The notes below the pieces were generated by a model, which had not been told where the DNA came from, made no database searches, and was given only the letters and a program-made list of their open reading frames with translations. The position numbers and the translations under genes were made by a program. Shown here piece by piece: positions 11,377 through 36,690 of a DNA stretch of 64,000 nt. This stretch comes from Panorpa germanica (Eukaryota > Arthropoda > Insecta > Mecoptera > Panorpidae). The stretch covers positions 2,294,001 to 2,358,000 of the forward strand of contig OY783203.1 of NCBI GenBank assembly GCA_963678705.1, written 5' to 3'. Numbering within the stretch: the first letter of the stretch is position 1; every line of letters starts with the position of its first letter.

Positions 11377-12492
11377 AATGTGCGGAGGACTTAAGTGTAT
11401 TACAATTTAAAAATATATTATTAAGTTATTATAAGTAATCCTCAAGTATGCTTTGTCTTGGAATACGGCTTGGTAATTGTCGTACAGGTGATGGCCATTT
11501 AAGATACACCTGTAAGTCTTCAGGTCTTCTATGACGTAGACTCAGTAGACTGACTGGACTGTTCGATTCAACATTCGGGGCATAAATGCACATGTGGAAG
11601 TAACATGATTCAGGCCACGCTCAAGCTATTTAAAGAGAACCTTCTTTGACGGAGACCAATGGGGGGATCAATGCACATCGATTCTTAACACAGCCGATTC
11701 AAACAAGCTGCAGGCATATTACGACTTTACCAGGGCTACAGTTAATGGGTTCACGAAATGTATGGGCCTAAAAAATGTGGCATTTAAGTACAAGTAACCT
11801 TCACATCGATTAAAAATATCTTACACATGTTTCTTTGTATGTACGAGAATTATTTTATAATTTTACGATATCCTTGTTAAACGATACAGGTTAATAGGTT
11901 CATATTGTTGGAGTTTTATATTTTAAAGAAAATTAGGTAAGAAGAATTCGTTTTATTTTTAATTTTATACCGGATATGCACCGCCTCCTATTTATTCCAG
12001 CACCATATTTATGGTGGCTATATGCAAAAAAAAGTCAGAGAGGCTTTTGCGCAGGTCTTGAAAGTCTAGGAGACCTCCAGCTTAGTAAACTGAACGTAAG
12101 ACCGAAAAGAAAGGTTATTTTCTAAAAGTTGGTAAATTTGACAAAATATGATAGAATTCGGCAACTTTTGTAGTGTATTGGATTCCTCTGACAAACATAC
12201 AACTTGTGTACAAACATTTTAAAGTACTTTTGTCTCAACTACATAAATTCTTAAGGATAAGAAATTGTTGTATTTGTTTGCATATTTGTTATTGTTTTTT
12301 TATAATATTATGTATTATTAAATGAAGTGAGACTCCTGGAATAACTTTTAATATTCATATTATTTATATGCAAAAGATATTGTTCTAATAAAAGAATAAT
12401 ATACTCTAACTAAGAAATGTGTTTTAAAACTAATATCTATTACCTATAAAATAAAATACCAGATCAGTTAGTTACTGCAACTAATACGAAAA
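11377..12492. other. no recognised feature
   Basis: No long ORF and no repeat shared with the rest of the window was seen. Confidence 0.5.
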
Positions 12493-12746
12493 CCCAGTAA
12501 ACATTTAGTGAAGTGTCTCTTTTTGTGGCGTTTCTATCACTATTTCACTTCAATTATAGTTCGCATCAACTTTATCTTCATTTGTATTCCGACAGGTGGA
12601 GTGGTTCCGTCATTTGTAGCCGATAAAACAGACATTTCATATGAACGATTGTGAGAAACTGATCTATAAATGAACTCTTTCATGACAAAAAAATCATACG
12701 CATCTCCAATATGATGTCAAAGTGACTCCAAAATGCTCCAAAATGT

Positions 12747-12976
12747 ACGTCGCTGAAGTTGGCGAAAAGTTTCAGCGAAAATATCGAAAATGAGCAGTAC
12801 TAGTGGTGTCCAACTGACATTCGCGCAAAAGTCTATATACTTGTTGGATTTAATATTTGCAAGTGTATTATGTCTTCTATTTAAATAATTACATTACAAT
12901 GTGTACGAAAAAAAATAAAAAAACATAAATAATAATAATATGGTAAAAATACCATATATTTGAATCGGTCAAAAAG
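12747..12976 (+). repeat. left terminal inverted repeat of the 5.6-kb element
   Basis: It matches the inverse complement of 18139-18366 with only a few differences, then diverges just after the shared GGTCAAAAAG. Unlike the right end it has no second inner TIR copy. Confidence 0.9.
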
Positions 12977-12995
12977 TGTTTATAACACACATGGC

Positions 12996-13322
12996 AAATG
13001 TCAATTTTCTCTAAAACAAGGAAAAATAAACTGTTTAAATTTTGCAGGGGGCTTATTAATATTACAACTAATTAAATAAATACAATTTTATTGACGCTTA
13101 ATATATTAATCAAAAAACTACAGACATCAGAATTCCCCCAACTCAAATTCATTCCTTGCATATGAACAGTGTTTGTAGTAACTTCGAAAATGTCAATTTT
13201 CTCCAAAACAAGGAAAAATAAACGGTTTAAATTTTGCAGGGAGCTTATTAACATTACAACTAATTAAATAAATACAATTTTATTGACGCTTGATATATTA
13301 ATCAAAAAACTACAGACATCAG
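12996..13322 (+). repeat. 135-bp direct repeat, two copies
   Basis: Copies at 12996-13130 and 13188-13322 start near AAATGTCAATTTT and end near CAGACATCAG, with few differences and a 57-bp spacer. They lie just inside the left TIR of the 5.6-kb element. Confidence 0.85.
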
Positions 13323-14631
13323 ACATCGATTGCCATTTATGTGAAAAATTGCACGTCAAATTTAAGTTCAAATAAATGTGCAACCGATAGCATTAATAAA
13401 GTAGATATAGGTAGGAAGTACATTAAATCAATAATTACATGTCAAAAATTTAACTTAAAACTATTCTAGATTCTAGTTATACTTAAGCTAATAACATCTA
13501 TTCCTTCTTCCCTTCATGTCATCTTCTTCCTTCCAGCTGCTATTTTCCTGACATCACTAATTTCTGTACAATAGAAGGAGATAAACTTAAGTGTTGATTA
13601 CTCCTTTATAAGAGAGTACTTTTAAATTTGCAGAAATGCTACGCACTCAGACCTGACCGCGCTATACATGCAATGAGGTTAGTGGTAAACAACAGATACT
13701 TTAGAAATATAAAGATGTCTATAGTTACTCTGTGAAATTAGAGAGTTTCTTAATTTAGATTTTATTTAAATTTGATTCAACTTTTGTAATAAGTTTTCTT
13801 ATTGATCAAAAATGAGAGATAGAAAATAATATTTTGTTTCAAAAATTATGAAAATTGAAAAGTAATTTTAAATTTAATCCGTAAACATTTTGAATTTTAA
13901 GACGGCTTTTATTAAAATATATTTAACATTTTTACGGAGCTTACTTTTAAGAATGTGGTACTCTTGCTTTAACATAAGTATCATCTTCTATTGTCTAATT
14001 ATTTCTAATATTGTCTATATATATTTTAAGGATAGTATATGTATTATCCTACCTATCAACTTAAATATAAAATACTTTTTTAGGCATGGTGCATAATCAT
14101 CAAAACTAGAAGGATCAGCATCTATGTCATGAAGCTTGAAAAATAAACAGCAAACCCGATCAAAATTACAACACTATCAAGATTCTCATCGAGATATGTA
14201 TCGTCAACAAACTATGCAAGGAGAACAATCGGCGAATAACAAAAGAAGAGTTTATTAAATTAAATTTGAATGCATAAATTATAGTGAACAAAGATTAAAA
14301 TTTAATAGGGAAATATTAGAAACATTTCCGAATAATACCAGATTTTTGTTAAGTGATTCAAAATTAATTGGTGAAATATTAAAATATTTAGACAATACTA
14401 AAATAAAATTATAAGTATAAAAAAAAATTTGATGCTTATGGCAAATACAAGTCAAGGCCAAATAAATAAATAAAATAAAAAAATTAGAAGAAATCAATTG
14501 TAGTATATTTATTATAAAAATGTATAATTAAAAATATATGAAAATAAAAACTATCTGAAATATAATTTTAATTCTTTTAATTATGCATATAAGTAAAAAA
14601 AAATTATTATACTTTAGGTAAATAGAAAATG
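13323..14631. other. unrecognised interior of the 5.6-kb element
   Basis: AT-rich DNA between the direct repeat and the satellite. The longest reading frames are about 70 codons of low complexity, and none resembles a transposase or another known protein. Confidence 0.5.
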
Positions 14632-17600
14632 TAGATATTTAAAAATCGATTTAACACAGTGTCAAAGTAGTTGCACATTATTAAAATTTCAAATGTTATA
14701 CTCTTGTTAATTTCATAAAAATCGTAGTTTGAATTTCATAAAACGGGGTGCACTAAGTACGGCTGCAAAATTTCTATTAGTTGTTCTCTTTTTACTTTCT
14801 AAATATAGAAAGTATTAGGGATATTTAAAATTAATTCTCATTTTTAAAATCAGAATAAAAAAGTACGTTAGAATACATCTTTTATTTGTCAAAACAAAAA
14901 ATTGATTTTTTATCAAATTTTTAAAGGTTATATATACTCTTGTTAATTTCCTAAAAATTCGACTTTTGATTTTGTTAATTTTAGAATGGTTATTAACGTA
15001 CTTTTTTACGCTGATTTCAAATCTGCAATTTGTTTTTTTCTAAGTGTCCCGGTTTTCGAGACATCGACATGATTAGGCATAAATAATAGAGATATTTAAA
15101 AATAGATTTCATTTTTGTAATCAGCATAAAAAACTACGTTCGAGTACATCTTTTATTTGTCAAAACAAAAAATTGACTTTTTATCAAATTTTTAAAGGTT
15201 ATACTCTTGTTAATTTCATAAAAATTCAACTTTTGATTTTGTTAATTTAAGAATGGTTATTAACGTACTTTTTTACGCTGATTTCAAATCTGCAATTTGT
15301 TTTTTTCTAGGTGTCCCGGTTTTCGAGACATCGACCTGATTAGGCATAAATAATAGAGATATTTAAAAATAGATTTCATTTTTGTAATCAGCATAAAAAA
15401 CTACGTTCGAGTACATCTTTTATTTGTCAAAACAAAAAATTGTTTTTTTATCAAATTTTTAAAGGTTATACTCTTGTTAATTTCATAAAAATCGCAGTTT
15501 GAATTTCATAAAACGGGGTGCACTAAGTACGGCTGCAAATTTCTTATTAGTTGTTCTCTTTTTAGTTTCTAAATATAGTAAGTATTAGGAATATTTAAAA
15601 TTGATTTTCATTTTTGTAATCAGCATAAAAAAGTACGTTAGAATACATCTTTTATTTGTCAAAACAAAAAATTGATTTTTTATCAAATTTTTAAAGGTTA
15701 TACTCTTGTTAATTTCCTAAAAATTCAACTTTTGATTTTGTTAATTTTAGAATGGTTATTAACGTACTTTTTTACGCTGATTTCAAATCTGCAAATTGTT
15801 TTTTTCTAGGTGTCCCGGTTTTCGAGATATTGACATGCTTAGGCATAAATAATAGAGATATTTAAAAATGGATTTCATTTTTGTAATCAGCATAAAAAAC
15901 TACGTTCGAATACATCTTTTATTTGTCAAAACAAAAAATTGATTTTTTATCAAATTTTTAAAGGTTATACTCTTGTTAATTTCATAAAAACTCAAATTTT
16001 GATTTTGTTAATTTTAGAGTGGTTATTAACGTACTTTTTTACGCTGATTTCAAATCTGCAAATTGTTTTTTTCTAGGTGTCCCGTTTTTCGAGATATCGA
16101 CATGATTAGGCATAAATAATAGAGATATTTAAAAATGGATTTCATTTTTGTAATCAGCATAAAAAACTACGTTCGAATACATCTTTTATTTGTCAAAACA
16201 AAAAATTAATTTTTTATCAAATTTTTAAAGGTTATACTCTTGTTAATTTCATAAAAATCGCAGTTTGAATTTCATAAAACGGGGTGCACTAAGTACGGCT
16301 GCAAATTTCTTATTAGTTGTTCTCTTTTTAGTTTCTAAATATAGTAAGTATTAGTAATATTTAAAATTGATTTTCATTTTTAAAATCAGCATAAAAAAGT
16401 ACGTTAGAATGCATCTTTTATTTGTCAAAACAAAAAATTAATTTTTTATCAAATTTTTAAAGGTTATACTCTTGTTAATTTCATAAAAATCGCAGTTTGA
16501 ATTTCATAAAACGGGGTGCACTAAGAACGGCTGCAAAATTCCTATTAGTTGTTCTCTTTTTACTTTCTAAATATAGTAAGTATTAGGAATATTTAAAATT
16601 GATTTTCATTTTTGTAATCAGCATAAAAAAGTACGTTAGAATACATCTTTTATTTGTCAAAACAAAAAATTGATTTTTTATCAAATTTTTAAAGGTTATA
16701 CTCTTGTTAATTTCCTAAAAATTCGACTTTTGATTTTGTTAATTTTAGAATGGTTATTAACGTACTTTTTTACGCTGATTTCAAATCTGCAAATTGTTTT
16801 TTTCTAGGTGTCCCGGTTTTCGAGATATTGACATGCTTAGGCATAAATAATAGAGATATTTAAAAATGGATTTCATTTTTGTAATCAGCATAAGAAACTA
16901 CGTTCGAATACATCTTTTATTTGTCAAAACAAAAAATTGACTTTTTATCAAATTTTTAAAGGTTATACTCTTGTTAATTTCATAAAAATTCAACTTTTGA
17001 TTTTGTTAATTTTAGAGTGGTTATTAACGTACTTTTTTACGCTGATTTCAAATCTGCAAATTGTTTTTTTCTAGGTGTCCCGTTTTTCGAGATATCGACA
17101 TGATTAGGCATAAATAATAGAGATATTTAAAAATGGATTTCATTTTTGTAATCAGCATAAAAAACTACGTTCGAATACATCTTTTATTTGTCAAAACAAA
17201 AAATTTATTTTTTATCAAATTTTTAAAGGTTATACTCTTGTTAATTTCATAAAAATTCAACTTTTGATTTTGTTAATTTTAGAGTGATTATTAACGTACT
17301 TTTTTACGCTGATTTCAAATCTGCAAATTGTTTTTTTCTAGGTGTCCCGTTTTTCGAGATATCGACATGATTAGGCATAAATAATAGAGATATTTAAAAA
17401 TGGATTTCATTTTTGTAATCAGCATAAAAAACTACGTTCGAATACATCTTTTATTTGTCAAAACAAAAAATTAATTTTTTATCAAATTTTTAAAGGTAAT
17501 ATTTGAAATTGATTTTCATTTTTAAAATCAGCATAAAAAAGTACGTTAGAATACATCTTTTATTTGTCAAAACAAAAAATTAATTTTTTATCAAATTTTT

Positions 17601-18091
17601 AAAGGTTATACTCTTGTTAATTTCATAAAAATCGCAGTTTGAATTTCATAAAACGGGGTGCACTAAGTACGGCTGCAAATTTCTTATTAGTTGTTCTCTT
17701 TTTAGTTTCTAAATATAGTAAGTATTAGTAATATTTAAAATTGATTTTCATTTTTGAAATCAGCATAAAAAAGTACGTTAGAATACATCTTTTATTTGTG
17801 AAAACAAAAAACTGATTTTTTGTCAAATTTTTAAAGGTTATACTCTTGTTAATTTCCTAAAAATTCAACTTTTGATTTTGTTAATTTTAGAATGGTTATT
17901 AACGTACTTTTTTACGCTGATTTCAAATCTGCCATATGTTTTTTTCTAGGTGTCCCGTTTTTCGAGATATCGACATGATTAGGCATAAATAATAGAGATA
18001 TTTAAAAATGGATTTCATTTTTGTAATCAGCATAAAAAACTACGTTCGAATACATCTTTTATTTGTCAAAACAAAAAATTGACTTTTTATC
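14632..18091 (+). repeat. two-monomer satellite array (232 and 267 bp)
   Basis: Monomers were phased on the motif GTTATACTCTTG. Starts are 14695, 14927, 15198, 15465, 15697, 15964, 16231, 16463, 16695, 16962, 17229, 17496, 17605 and 17837. Spacings are 232 bp (type X) or 267 bp (type Y; one is 271), except one 109-bp deleted X at 17496 and a truncated last Y. X and Y share their start and their 3' half and differ in the middle (X: ACGGGGTGCACTAAG; Y: TTTTTTCTAGGTGTCCCG). The order is X Y Y X Y Y X X Y Y Y X' X Y. A partial monomer precedes at 14632. There is no coding potential. Confidence 0.95.
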
Positions 18092-18366
18092 ACGTCGCTG
18101 AAGATGGCGAAAAGATTCAGCGAAAATATCGAAAATATCTTTTTGACCGATTCAAATATATGGTATTTTTACCATATTATTATTATTTATGTTTTTTTAT
18201 TTTTTTTCGTACACATTGTAATGTATTTATTTAAATAGAAGACATAATACACTTGCAAATATTAAATCCAACAAGTATATAGACTTTTGCGCGAATGTCA
18301 GTTGTACCACTAGTACTGCTCATTTTCGATATTTTCGCTGAAACTTTTCGCCAACTTCAGCGACGT
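18092..18366 (-). mobile_element. element B: right end of the 5.6-kb unit, itself MITE-like
   Basis: This 275-bp block has the ACGTCGCTGAAG terminus at both of its own ends (18092 and, inverted, 18366). It abuts the truncated last satellite monomer. The DNA next to its inner end does not match the duplication next to its outer end, so the outer end pairs with 12747 rather than with 18092. Confidence 0.8.
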
Positions 18367-18383
18367 CCAAAATGTTTACTGGG

Positions 18384-19773: not shown

Positions 19774-20035
19774 CCCAGTAAACATTTTTGAGCATTTTGG
19801 AGTCACTTTGACATCATATTGGAGATGCGTGTGATTTTTTTGTCATGAAAAAGTTCATTTATAGTTCAGTTTCTTAGAATCGTTCATATGAAATGTTTGT
19901 TTTATCGGCTACAGATGAAGGAACCACTTCACCTGTCGGAATACAAATGAAGATAAAGTTGATGCGAACTATAATTGAAGTGAAATAGTGATAGAAACGT
20001 CACAAAATAGGACACTTCACTAAATGTTTACTGGG
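19774..20035 (-). mobile_element. family A MITE copy 2
   Basis: A complete 262-bp copy in reverse orientation with CCCAGTAAACA / TGTTTACTGGG termini and the conserved interior (TTCACTTCAATTATAG and TATCTTCATTTGTATTC on its sense strand). It has the same internal end duplication as copy 1. Confidence 0.92.
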
Positions 20036-20170
20036 TGTGGTGGTATGCGAATGAGGGTTTCCGTTGACATTGCACTTCCCTCATGCCACGGTGTAACAGC
20101 GTTCGGTTCACTTATTTTTATAGATAATTTCATGATCTACAACTTTTGTCTAATATATTTTTATGATAAG

Positions 20171-34703: not shown

Positions 34704-36605
34704 TTATTCAGAGAATTTCCACCACCTTTTATCGAATCCTTCACGAATTAATCCCACTAATTTTTGGCGACGATCAGCACAATAAAGGGAGCCGTTAAAC
34801 ATTTCTGTGTAGTCGTTTATATTCTTCGACATTGCAACTTCATTCAAATACCCGACTAAGCGATCCGTTGCTTCTTCAAGAATATTTTGATTGTATACAA
34901 ATAACATTGAATTAGCATCATTTTGTTCTAAATAAAACGCCAATGCGTAAGTAACCATGAGCGTCTGGCGGCACTGACCTAACACTTTAACTGCTAAACC
35001 AAGTATACTTGTGTTCCCAACATCTATCTTATTTGTTATAATAAGTTTCAGGAGCATTTCCTCTGATATCAGGCATTTGGAATGATGCTTATAAATGTTG
35101 TAATAATATTCTTTCGATTTTCCATCACACGTACCAGGTTCAGTGGGTGATTCATTTTCCTTGTTTTTTTCACATTCACAGGTTTTATTTGAGTACCAGG
35201 TATGTGAGCAATTCCAACAAAACTCATATCCACCATATTTCTTCCCGCATCTAAGATTAGTGTCCAAACAATTAGGGCACTCATTTCGTGTTGTACAAAT
35301 GCTTCCGCGTTCTTCAGAACAATTTGTAAGCCACTTCTTAAATAATTGACAATCTATAGGATCGTGCCAAATTTCATTACATGAAAAACAAAACTTTTTC
35401 CCACAAAGGCATGTTACTTCATTGCTGCGGTTCTTTTCTAATTGAATGAAATTGCTGCAATCGGAAGCAGGACATAGAGTTAGACGATTATTGCTTTTGA
35501 GATAAGTGTTGATGATTAATTGTTGATACATATTTCTGACAGTTGCAGGTACCATTCTCATGATGAACTCGTCATCAACTAGTAACCCACATTTATGTGA
35601 CATGCAAACTATTCCTTCTAAGGAGCCCTCCACCATTATCTTCCGAGTAAGATATTCTCGCCAACAAAACTCACAGGATTGATGGCCACAATTCAACTCG
35701 ATCATCTTTGCGACATCTGAAAAACATATTTTACATTCCATGCTTCCAATTTCTATCGGTATTGATGATTCTTCTGATAGTGTATATTCACGATTCACCA
35801 AGCCGGCTTCTTTGAATAATTTTTCTTTACTTTCGGACAGTCTCTCTGCTACTTCCATTACGTCCCAATCCAAATAATTCAATATTATACGTATTGCAGA
35901 TTTCGGTATTTGAAAAATAGTGTTTATATTTGTAAGACAATCATCCATTTGTTTAACAATTTCTTCGATTGATAAAACTTTGAAATGGTTATATTCCGGA
36001 TCTTGTACTGACATGTTACTAAACTCTTCTATATAACTTTCATTAAAATCATTCGGTTCACTCTCGTCCTCTTCGGTATTAGTTATTTCTGACAATTCTG
36101 ACAGATGTTTATCCTCGTCCTCTTTGGTTTTAGATTCTACTGACAATTTTTCAAAAGTATCGCAAATATCTTTGTTTGAGTTATTAAGTTTATGCTTGTT
36201 GTTTTTAGTTTTGCTTTTTGTTGTCTTTTTAACAAACTGAGATCTGATTCTAGACAGTTTTTCTGCTAACATTCCAACCCTAGACCAAAAATCTTTGTTA
36301 AAGTAATAATATTTGCCCTCTTCCTCTTCGGCTGTAATTTCTGCTGAAATTTTTTCACCATTATCGCAAGTATCTTCGTTAGAGTAATAATGTGTATCCT
36401 CATCCTCTTCGAATTTATTTTTTGGTGACAATTCTTCAAAACTATCACAAGTATCTTTTGCCGAGTAATATAGTTCATCCTCGTCTTCTTCGATTATAGA
36501 TTTAGCTGATATTCTTTCAACACTATCGCAAATATTTATATGCGAGTAATACAGCTCTTCCAATACATCTTCGAAATAGCTGTACACATCGTCATTACTA
36601 TCCAT
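34704..36605 (-). CDS. Ariadne-type RBR E3 ubiquitin ligase with atypical RING2
   Basis: Member of the Ariadne group of RING1-IBR-RING2 ligases, which accept ubiquitin from an E2 on a RING2 cysteine and pass it to substrates, often with cullin-RING ligases. Seen, in order: acidic N-terminus with 27-residue repeats (17-165); UBA-like helices (about 210-272); RING1 with all eight ligands (C291, C294, C306, H308, C311, C314, C334, C339); IBR with all eight (C378, C383, C399, C401, C406, C409, H414, C419); a short RING2 (C443, C446, lone C453, C463, C466, H468, C476/C478); Ariadne domain (about 500-633, with QCRQTLMVTY at 544-553). Length is normal for the family. The ATG sits in AAAAATGG with an in-frame TAA seven codons upstream, which fixes the start. 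It is a single uninterrupted exon. RING2 lacks the usual GGCNHM active-site segment, so transfer activity is doubtful. Family assignment is firm; orthology to ARIH1 versus a lineage-specific copy is not settled. Confidence 0.93.
   Translation of the reverse strand: MDSNDDVYSYFEDVLEELYYSHINICDSVERISAKSIIEEDEDELYYSAKDTCDSFEELSPKNKFEEDEDTHYYSNEDTCDNGEKISAEITAEEEEGKYYYFNKDFWSRVGMLAEKLSRIRSQFVKKTTKSKTKNNKHKLNNSNKDICDTFEKLSVESKTKEDEDKHLSELSEITNTEEDESEPNDFNESYIEEFSNMSVQDPEYNHFKVLSIEEIVKQMDDCLTNINTIFQIPKSAIRIILNYLDWDVMEVAERLSESKEKLFKEAGLVNREYTLSEESSIPIEIGSMECKICFSDVAKMIELNCGHQSCEFCWREYLTRKIMVEGSLEGIVCMSHKCGLLVDDEFIMRMVPATVRNMYQQLIINTYLKSNNRLTLCPASDCSNFIQLEKNRSNEVTCLCGKKFCFSCNEIWHDPIDCQLFKKWLTNCSEERGSICTTRNECPNCLDTNLRCGKKYGGYEFCWNCSHTWYSNKTCECEKNKENESPTEPGTCDGKSKEYYYNIYKHHSKCLISEEMLLKLIITNKIDVGNTSILGLAVKVLGQCRQTLMVTYALAFYLEQNDANSMLFVYNQNILEEATDRLVGYLNEVAMSKNINDYTEMFNGSLYCADRRQKLVGLIREGFDKRWWKFSE
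36111..36557 (-). repeat. 27-residue (81-bp) coding repeats in the ligase N-terminus
   Basis: Residues 17-43, 44-70 and 71-97 are three adjacent 27-residue units of the form xLYYSxxDxCDSxExxS...EEDED. A diverged unit follows at about 98-124, and after a lysine-rich linker another clear unit lies at 139-165. Each ends in an acidic run. The unit is not part of the usual Ariadne architecture and has no recognised domain name. Confidence 0.8.
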
Positions 36606-36690
36606 TTTTTTAATTATTATGACGTTTTAAAATAATTGCAATGACCTGTGATGTAAATTTAAATATTTACGCTGGAACAATGTAAAAGAA

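Follow-up and report, generated by a model that had tools for sequence, protein, structure and literature searches.

A foldback transposon of Panorpa germanica with a satellite array between its ends

How does satellite DNA reach new loci? The question is an old one, and a unit at positions 12747-18366 of the DNA considered here, in which an array of tandem satellite repeats lies between inverted transposon ends, offers a readable case of such spread. The window (the whole stretch of 64,000 nucleotides that was analysed) comes from the mecopteran Panorpa germanica and corresponds to C21:2294001-2358000 (contig OY783203.1) of assembly GCA_963678705.1, which has a size of 464 Mb. Numbers with a C denote contigs of this assembly, and numbers with an L denote fetched end-bearing loci or pair records. 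With a probability of about 0.82, we read the unit as a non-autonomous foldback element whose transposase region was replaced by captured genomic DNA that includes the edge of a satellite array.

The window unit and its target site

The inverted arms of the unit pair 12744-12807 with 18306-18369 (98% identity) and 12808-12976 with 18139-18307 (99%), and the 9 bp directly outside the unit are repeated exactly. When the flanks are rejoined with a single copy of this duplication, they form a miniature inverted-repeat transposable element (MITE), which can be aligned along 263 bp with an intact copy at 19774-20036; mismatches are scattered, one of them inside the duplication site. A previous sequence-only reading of the window had claimed matching ends of about 230 bp, an exact 9-bp duplication, a MITE split by the unit with an uninterrupted copy at 19774, and a satellite array carried between the transposon ends, all of which is borne out. 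The matching ends, the duplication and the second MITE copy with its empty site confirm 12747-18366 as a transposed unit, with the following layout.

12492-12746, no strand assigned: left portion of the interrupted MITE, whose right remainder is 18376-18383
12738-12746, + strand: left copy of the target-site duplication (CCAAAATGT)
12747-12995, + strand: T, left unique transposon end, 249 bp; 118 tips of the same kind genome-wide, control 0
12996-13323, + strand: R192 foldback subrepeat, 1.7 copies; up to 45 copies per arm in other elements
13326-13636, + strand: U1, transposon-derived part; 94-95% identical to the region 3' of a transposase-like gene in L058, L041 and L027
13627-13632, + strand: TTTGCA, 6-bp microhomology, putative capture junction; common to the transposon and C19:2.139 Mb
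13633-14677, + strand: captured non-transposon segment (remaining U1 and U2); dispersed repeat at about 14259-14490
14678-18091 (approximate start), + strand: satellite array, mixed 267- and 232-bp units
18092-18136, + strand: 45-bp direct copy of the tip, read as the inner-end remnant of a second element; same satellite-to-tip junction at four other loci
18139-18366, - strand: T, right transposon end, 228 bp, no subrepeats
18367-18375, + strand: right copy of the target-site duplication (CCAAAATGT)
19774-20036, no strand assigned: intact MITE copy showing the empty site

The left arm runs on into 192-bp subrepeats, and the tip copy stands between the satellite and the right end; the sequence-only reading had noted neither. 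The two satellite unit types are tandemly mixed and 96% alike over their first 134 bp. Within the 267-bp unit, positions 14-206 form a diverged inverted repeat of their own with 70% self-complementarity, and the dispersed repeat of about 230 bp inside the captured segment occurs at many genomic places with 76-80% identity.

A satellite-bearing lineage within a foldback family

Does the window unit belong to a family that has moved elsewhere? A 34-base tip pattern searched with at most 3 mismatches gave 118 sites in the genome, 100 of which were listed, and the reversed pattern used as control gave 0; a second tip variant gave 67 sites with none for its control. The listed sites of both variants comprise 149 distinct tips. 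Inverted pairs of the ends, for which the sequence-only reading had called, do exist: an exact 9-bp duplication was found in 25 of the 30 pair records that were fetched (845 to 24,095 bp long). The remaining five have 10 bp (L027), 8 bp (L033+34) or no duplication (L038, L029 and L030). L029 (C221) and L030 (C239) hold an identical 3184-bp insertion, mirrored on two small contigs, which are perhaps haplotype duplicates. Duplications of 8-11 bp are characteristic of Mutator-type elements. Across the first 230 bp, arm identity in the family is 95.6-100%, and the arms consist of the 249-bp end (T) followed by up to 45 copies of the 192-bp subrepeat (R192) in inverted orientation; subrepeats are lacking in the right arm of the window unit and one arm of L028. 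Foldback elements are defined by long inverted arms that contain tandem subrepeats, and the structure of the family, T ends and inverted R192 arrays around a loop, is clearly of this kind.

The same satellite is present in 8 of the 30 fetched pairs and in a ninth at C19:13042020-13059564 (duplication ACTCTGATA). The nine are spread over seven contigs (C4, C7, C8, C9 with two, C17, C19 and C21 with two); eight are flanked by an exact 9-bp duplication and the other by one of 8 bp. In the eight satellite elements fetched whole, the arrays measure 2.4-15.2 kb, the longest corresponding to 64 BLAST-matched pieces in one element. U1 and U2 precede the array in five of the nine (window, C7, C9:2402k, C4:18535k and C19), C8 has pieces of both, and C9:440k, C17:4389k and C21:5723k are satellite pairs without either. 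According to the listed matches, a further tip pair at C4:25229377-25253172 encloses U2 and satellite.

The left junction, agttgcaca followed by TTATTAAAATTTC, is base-identical at six loci on five contigs (five of the nine pairs plus C21:1.31 Mb), and the outer duplications differ among loci that share it (four fetched pairs and C19). With gaps left out, U1 and U2 differ by 0.4-1.7% substitutions among the six copies compared. Since a base-identical junction at six loci together with such low divergence points to shared descent with movement, we infer from these comparisons that the satellite moved along with the element after a single capture.

The satellite appears foreign to its carrier. 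Queried with T or R192, the window array gave no match except the 45-bp tip at its end, so that a Tetris-type source, in which the satellite unit derives from an arm subrepeat, was not found in the window. None of the 11 fetched loci (10 copies) without satellite matched it, and U2 occurs in the satellite-free copies in L011 only, as short pieces (longest 134 bp at 76%). Of the 20 loci with an exact match to a satellite 91-mer, 17 are no more than 15 kb away from a listed tip, vs 0.7% of the genome. Altogether there are at least 28 satellite loci (20 with the exact 91-mer, six from pairs or edges and two further), and a family tip or end was listed or read near 23 of these 28. C21, which makes up about a tenth of the assembly and is the longest contig seen, holds seven of them; it is perhaps, as a guess, a sex chromosome.

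Probable capture, turnover and competing explanations

Where did the foreign DNA come from? At C19:2138871-2140174 the captured flank is present as well (95% over the flank by BLAST). Homology to the window begins there at the place where transposon homology stops, and no transposon sequence was found in the 131 bp read ahead of it. Transposon copies read ...AAATTTGCACAAA, the C19 locus ...AACTTTGCAGAAATGC and the window ...AAATTTGCAGAAATGC, placing the join within TTTGCA, common to both parents. The satellite at this locus is about 0.4 kb long, starting near 2139860 by extrapolation; the 161 bp read there contain a 72-bp satellite match and a short fragment, followed by other sequence. In a single search against the window, the match including the satellite is 89% at C19:2.139 Mb vs 97-98% for six carried copies. 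The locus may be the donor or a sibling of the donor, with array growth after capture.

The proposed course would begin with a single capture by joining at the 6-bp microhomology TTTGCA, after which the array would change length within the element, up to tens of units. Other copies would supply a transposase that recognises the ends, and the block would be moved to new sites. In one sublineage a second element would have inserted into the array, leaving the tip remnant of the window copy. This last step would account for a right junction, gactttttatc followed by AC(G/A)TCGCTGAAGATGG, that is found at five loci including the window: at C21:1313368, C4:12736983, C11:5383943 and C21:45615184 a direct tip of variant GATGG meets the satellite at the same base. 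The arrays at C9:2402k and C4:18535k stop within 1-2 bases of this place without a tip, and the opposite end of a second element was absent from the parts read at the four loci named. In one ancestor or sublineage the array was probably the target of this second element, which was later cut back to the window remnant; a candidate composite origin, with two elements flanking an array, also fits the junction and would predict a second duplication.

Monomers have their nearest relative in their own locus in 73-77% of cases vs 10% with shuffled labels, and many arrays have thus changed locally. A number of observations weigh against the reading we favour. The nearest neighbour lies elsewhere for all four 232-type units of the window and for all six at C4:12737k. 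Arrays that share the left junction are not collinear, as equal-register identity swings between about 79 and 98%, so that movement of each array at its present length cannot be shown; collinearity is judged here from block identities, as the marker string misses units (at C7 it records hardly any 267-type units, 19 of which were found otherwise). No transposon end was listed or read near five of the at least 28 satellite loci, namely two on C10 together with C12:1.6 Mb, C18:3.05 Mb and C19:2.139 Mb; at C12 and C18 one edge each was read, and neither family end nor subrepeat was present in it. The left edge of C4:12737k likewise shows no transposon end. Finally, in the flank-only BLAST, C19:2.139 Mb (95%) is barely under the carried copies at C7 and C19:13.06 Mb (96%), so that its status as an outgroup does not follow from divergence by itself. 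By the same measure, full-length rows for carried copies over the flank run at 95-99% counting that 95% row and 96-99% without it; BLAST identity counts gaps, and these values are not comparable with the 0.4-1.7% for substitutions only.

A competing idea is that the transposon is the place where the satellite arose or was first amplified, the arrays at C19:2.139 Mb, C10, C12 and C18 being relics that lost their ends. A precedent is available in Tetris, a foldback that makes satellite from its own subrepeats (PMC4079207), and the proximity of 23 of the 28 loci to transposon ends agrees with such an origin, as does the small difference in flank divergence. We nevertheless consider it unlikely, given that the satellite is unmatched in the satellite-free loci and U2 is confined to short pieces in L011, that homology at C19:2.139 Mb starts at the end of transposon homology, and that the satellite-inclusive match there falls to 89%. 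Arrays already dispersed could also have received independent transposon insertions in or beside them, which the satellite-to-tip junction at five loci resembles and which would explain arrays without ends in the part read; identical inner junctions at six loci combined with differing outer duplications need shared descent plus movement and make this very improbable.

A spread without transposition, through segmental duplication or ectopic recombination among elements, would suit the window and C21:1.31 Mb, which lie on one chromosome and have both satellite junctions in common, the latter copy being without a left end at the expected place. Complete pairs have differing target duplications, however, and the MITE shows an empty site, so we would give this explanation very little credence. 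Repeats of this kind do assemble poorly, and two small contigs carry one insertion mirrored, but exact duplications at eight satellite pairs, together with the empty MITE site, would hardly arise as a consistent artefact, and misassembly is barely conceivable. Returning to capture and movement by a foldback, a bolder version treats the element as a satellite incubator, in which a short seed captured once at the 6-bp microhomology was grown to tens of units in a mobile loop and delivered to more than 20 sites, some of the delivered copies then losing their ends and remaining as free-standing arrays (C10, C12, C18). We put this forward tentatively, as possible rather than probable.

Transposase-like gene and known systems

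What could have moved these elements? L058 (C8) contains an open frame of 1170 aa whose C-terminal part matches Pfam Peptidase_C48 (3.5e-8) and SENP1 (1.3e-9), that is, an Ulp1/C48 domain. Residues D487, D561, C609/H612, W777 and E796 were chosen by eye as candidates for the DDE, CH and W positions, CH and W being reported in most Mutator-like elements (MULEs) (PMC5225508). Two results count against the favoured reading: Pfam gave no MULE match for the protein, and its DDE region, when folded from a single sequence, reached a pLDDT (predicted local distance difference test) of 35, with no usable fold. Pieces of the protein lie between ends in L012, L022, L024, L027, L037, L041, L042 and L043 and also in the satellite copies L020 and L031. 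A 278-aa part used as query gave 102 matches, some within long open frames, and the protein has relatives at 58% and 30%; tips are listed on either side of matches at C1:4578337-4597159, C4:4611196-4621751 and C21:23284701-23292577, and around the L058 gene at C8:3729214 and 3752109. Among six open frames between ends that were scanned with Pfam, only the C48 domain of L041 was above the cut-off, and L011 had no match. The sequence-only reading had called for a search for an autonomous copy with a transposase, and what the family ends enclose in other copies are fragments of a transposase-like gene, without a Pfam MULE match. The L058 gene is followed by 172-bp repeats (7 matches in L058) that correspond to U1 in the window unit, so that the satellite elements have the appearance of derivatives formed by internal deletion.

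Two other pairs have different contents. L035-L037 (C7:16547543-16571637), a foldback pair of 24 kb, is flanked by an exact 9-bp duplication and contains two inverted copies of a 1280/1284-aa frame; the L035 frame has zinc-finger (C2H2-like) and endonuclease-VII matches, both under Pfam cut-offs, and these frames contain motifs that by eye look polymerase-like. In L043+L044 (C7:9481988-9494828), frames resembling by eye the gag and reverse transcriptase of a long interspersed nuclear element (LINE) lie between foldback arms.

Foldback arms are also typical of FB/NOF elements and FB-flanked macrotransposons of Drosophila, where two copies can carry the DNA between them; they are not known to carry a satellite cargo of this kind. 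The Panorpa element most likely belongs to the Mutator superfamily, near Rehavkus, in view of its duplication length, end structure and eye-picked motifs, with no profile match. The earlier suggestion of a non-autonomous foldback- or Mutator-type member holds accordingly, clearly for the foldback plan and by way of these features for the Mutator part. Rehavkus, for which an arthropod or annelid host is part of the definition, is described with 9-bp duplications, ends of 26-400 bp and a minisatellite before the 3' end, to which the 9-bp duplications and the 172-bp repeat after the gene correspond here; it is also described with a PHD finger (PMC6446971), whereas neither a Pfam match nor a Cys/His pattern for one was found in the 1170-aa frame, to which that search was confined, and a C48 protease domain is present instead. 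Muta1 and other MULEs of Aedes aegypti have duplications of 8-9 bp, ends that are mostly long and contain subterminal repeats, and DDE with CH/W in most; in Muta1 the second D and the E are 136 residues apart, vs 235 between the eye-picked residues here, and the consulted part of that source describes no satellite loop (PMC5225508).

That satellites occur within transposons or derive from them is well documented (PMC4079207, PMC7492417, and the review PMC12628747). Tetris of Drosophila virilis is likewise a foldback with tandem arm subrepeats (about 220 bp), 8-10 bp duplications and a link to a satellite, but in that element the satellite consists of the arm subrepeat (PMC4079207), whereas the satellite considered here matches neither end nor R192 and lies in the loop beside captured DNA. 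The non-autonomous Helentron Cg_HINE of Crassostrea gigas also spreads satellite-like arrays across a genome; it has no target duplications, and its arrays reach at most 29 monomers (PMC7492417), in contrast to 9-bp duplications and 15.2 kb here. A proposal cited in the same paper holds that long arrays accompany low mobility, and it is touched by elements that have intact duplications around arrays of some 15 kb. Among the top 3 to 15 results of each literature search, no title or abstract opening showed a foldback whose loop harbours a foreign satellite. What is new is a satellite foreign to the arms, located in a foldback loop, reaching up to 15 kb with intact duplications and having a readable capture junction. 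A single genome brings together the carrier, its capture junction, a locus that may represent the state before capture, numerous deliveries marked by target duplications and what may be their free-standing products, and each step is therefore datable and testable.

Elsewhere in the window, an open frame of 640 aa at 34704-36626 (- strand) has IBR, RING and ARIH1-type UBA matches and overlaps an 81-bp tandem repeat at 36291-36535; at a guess, it may be a retrocopy.

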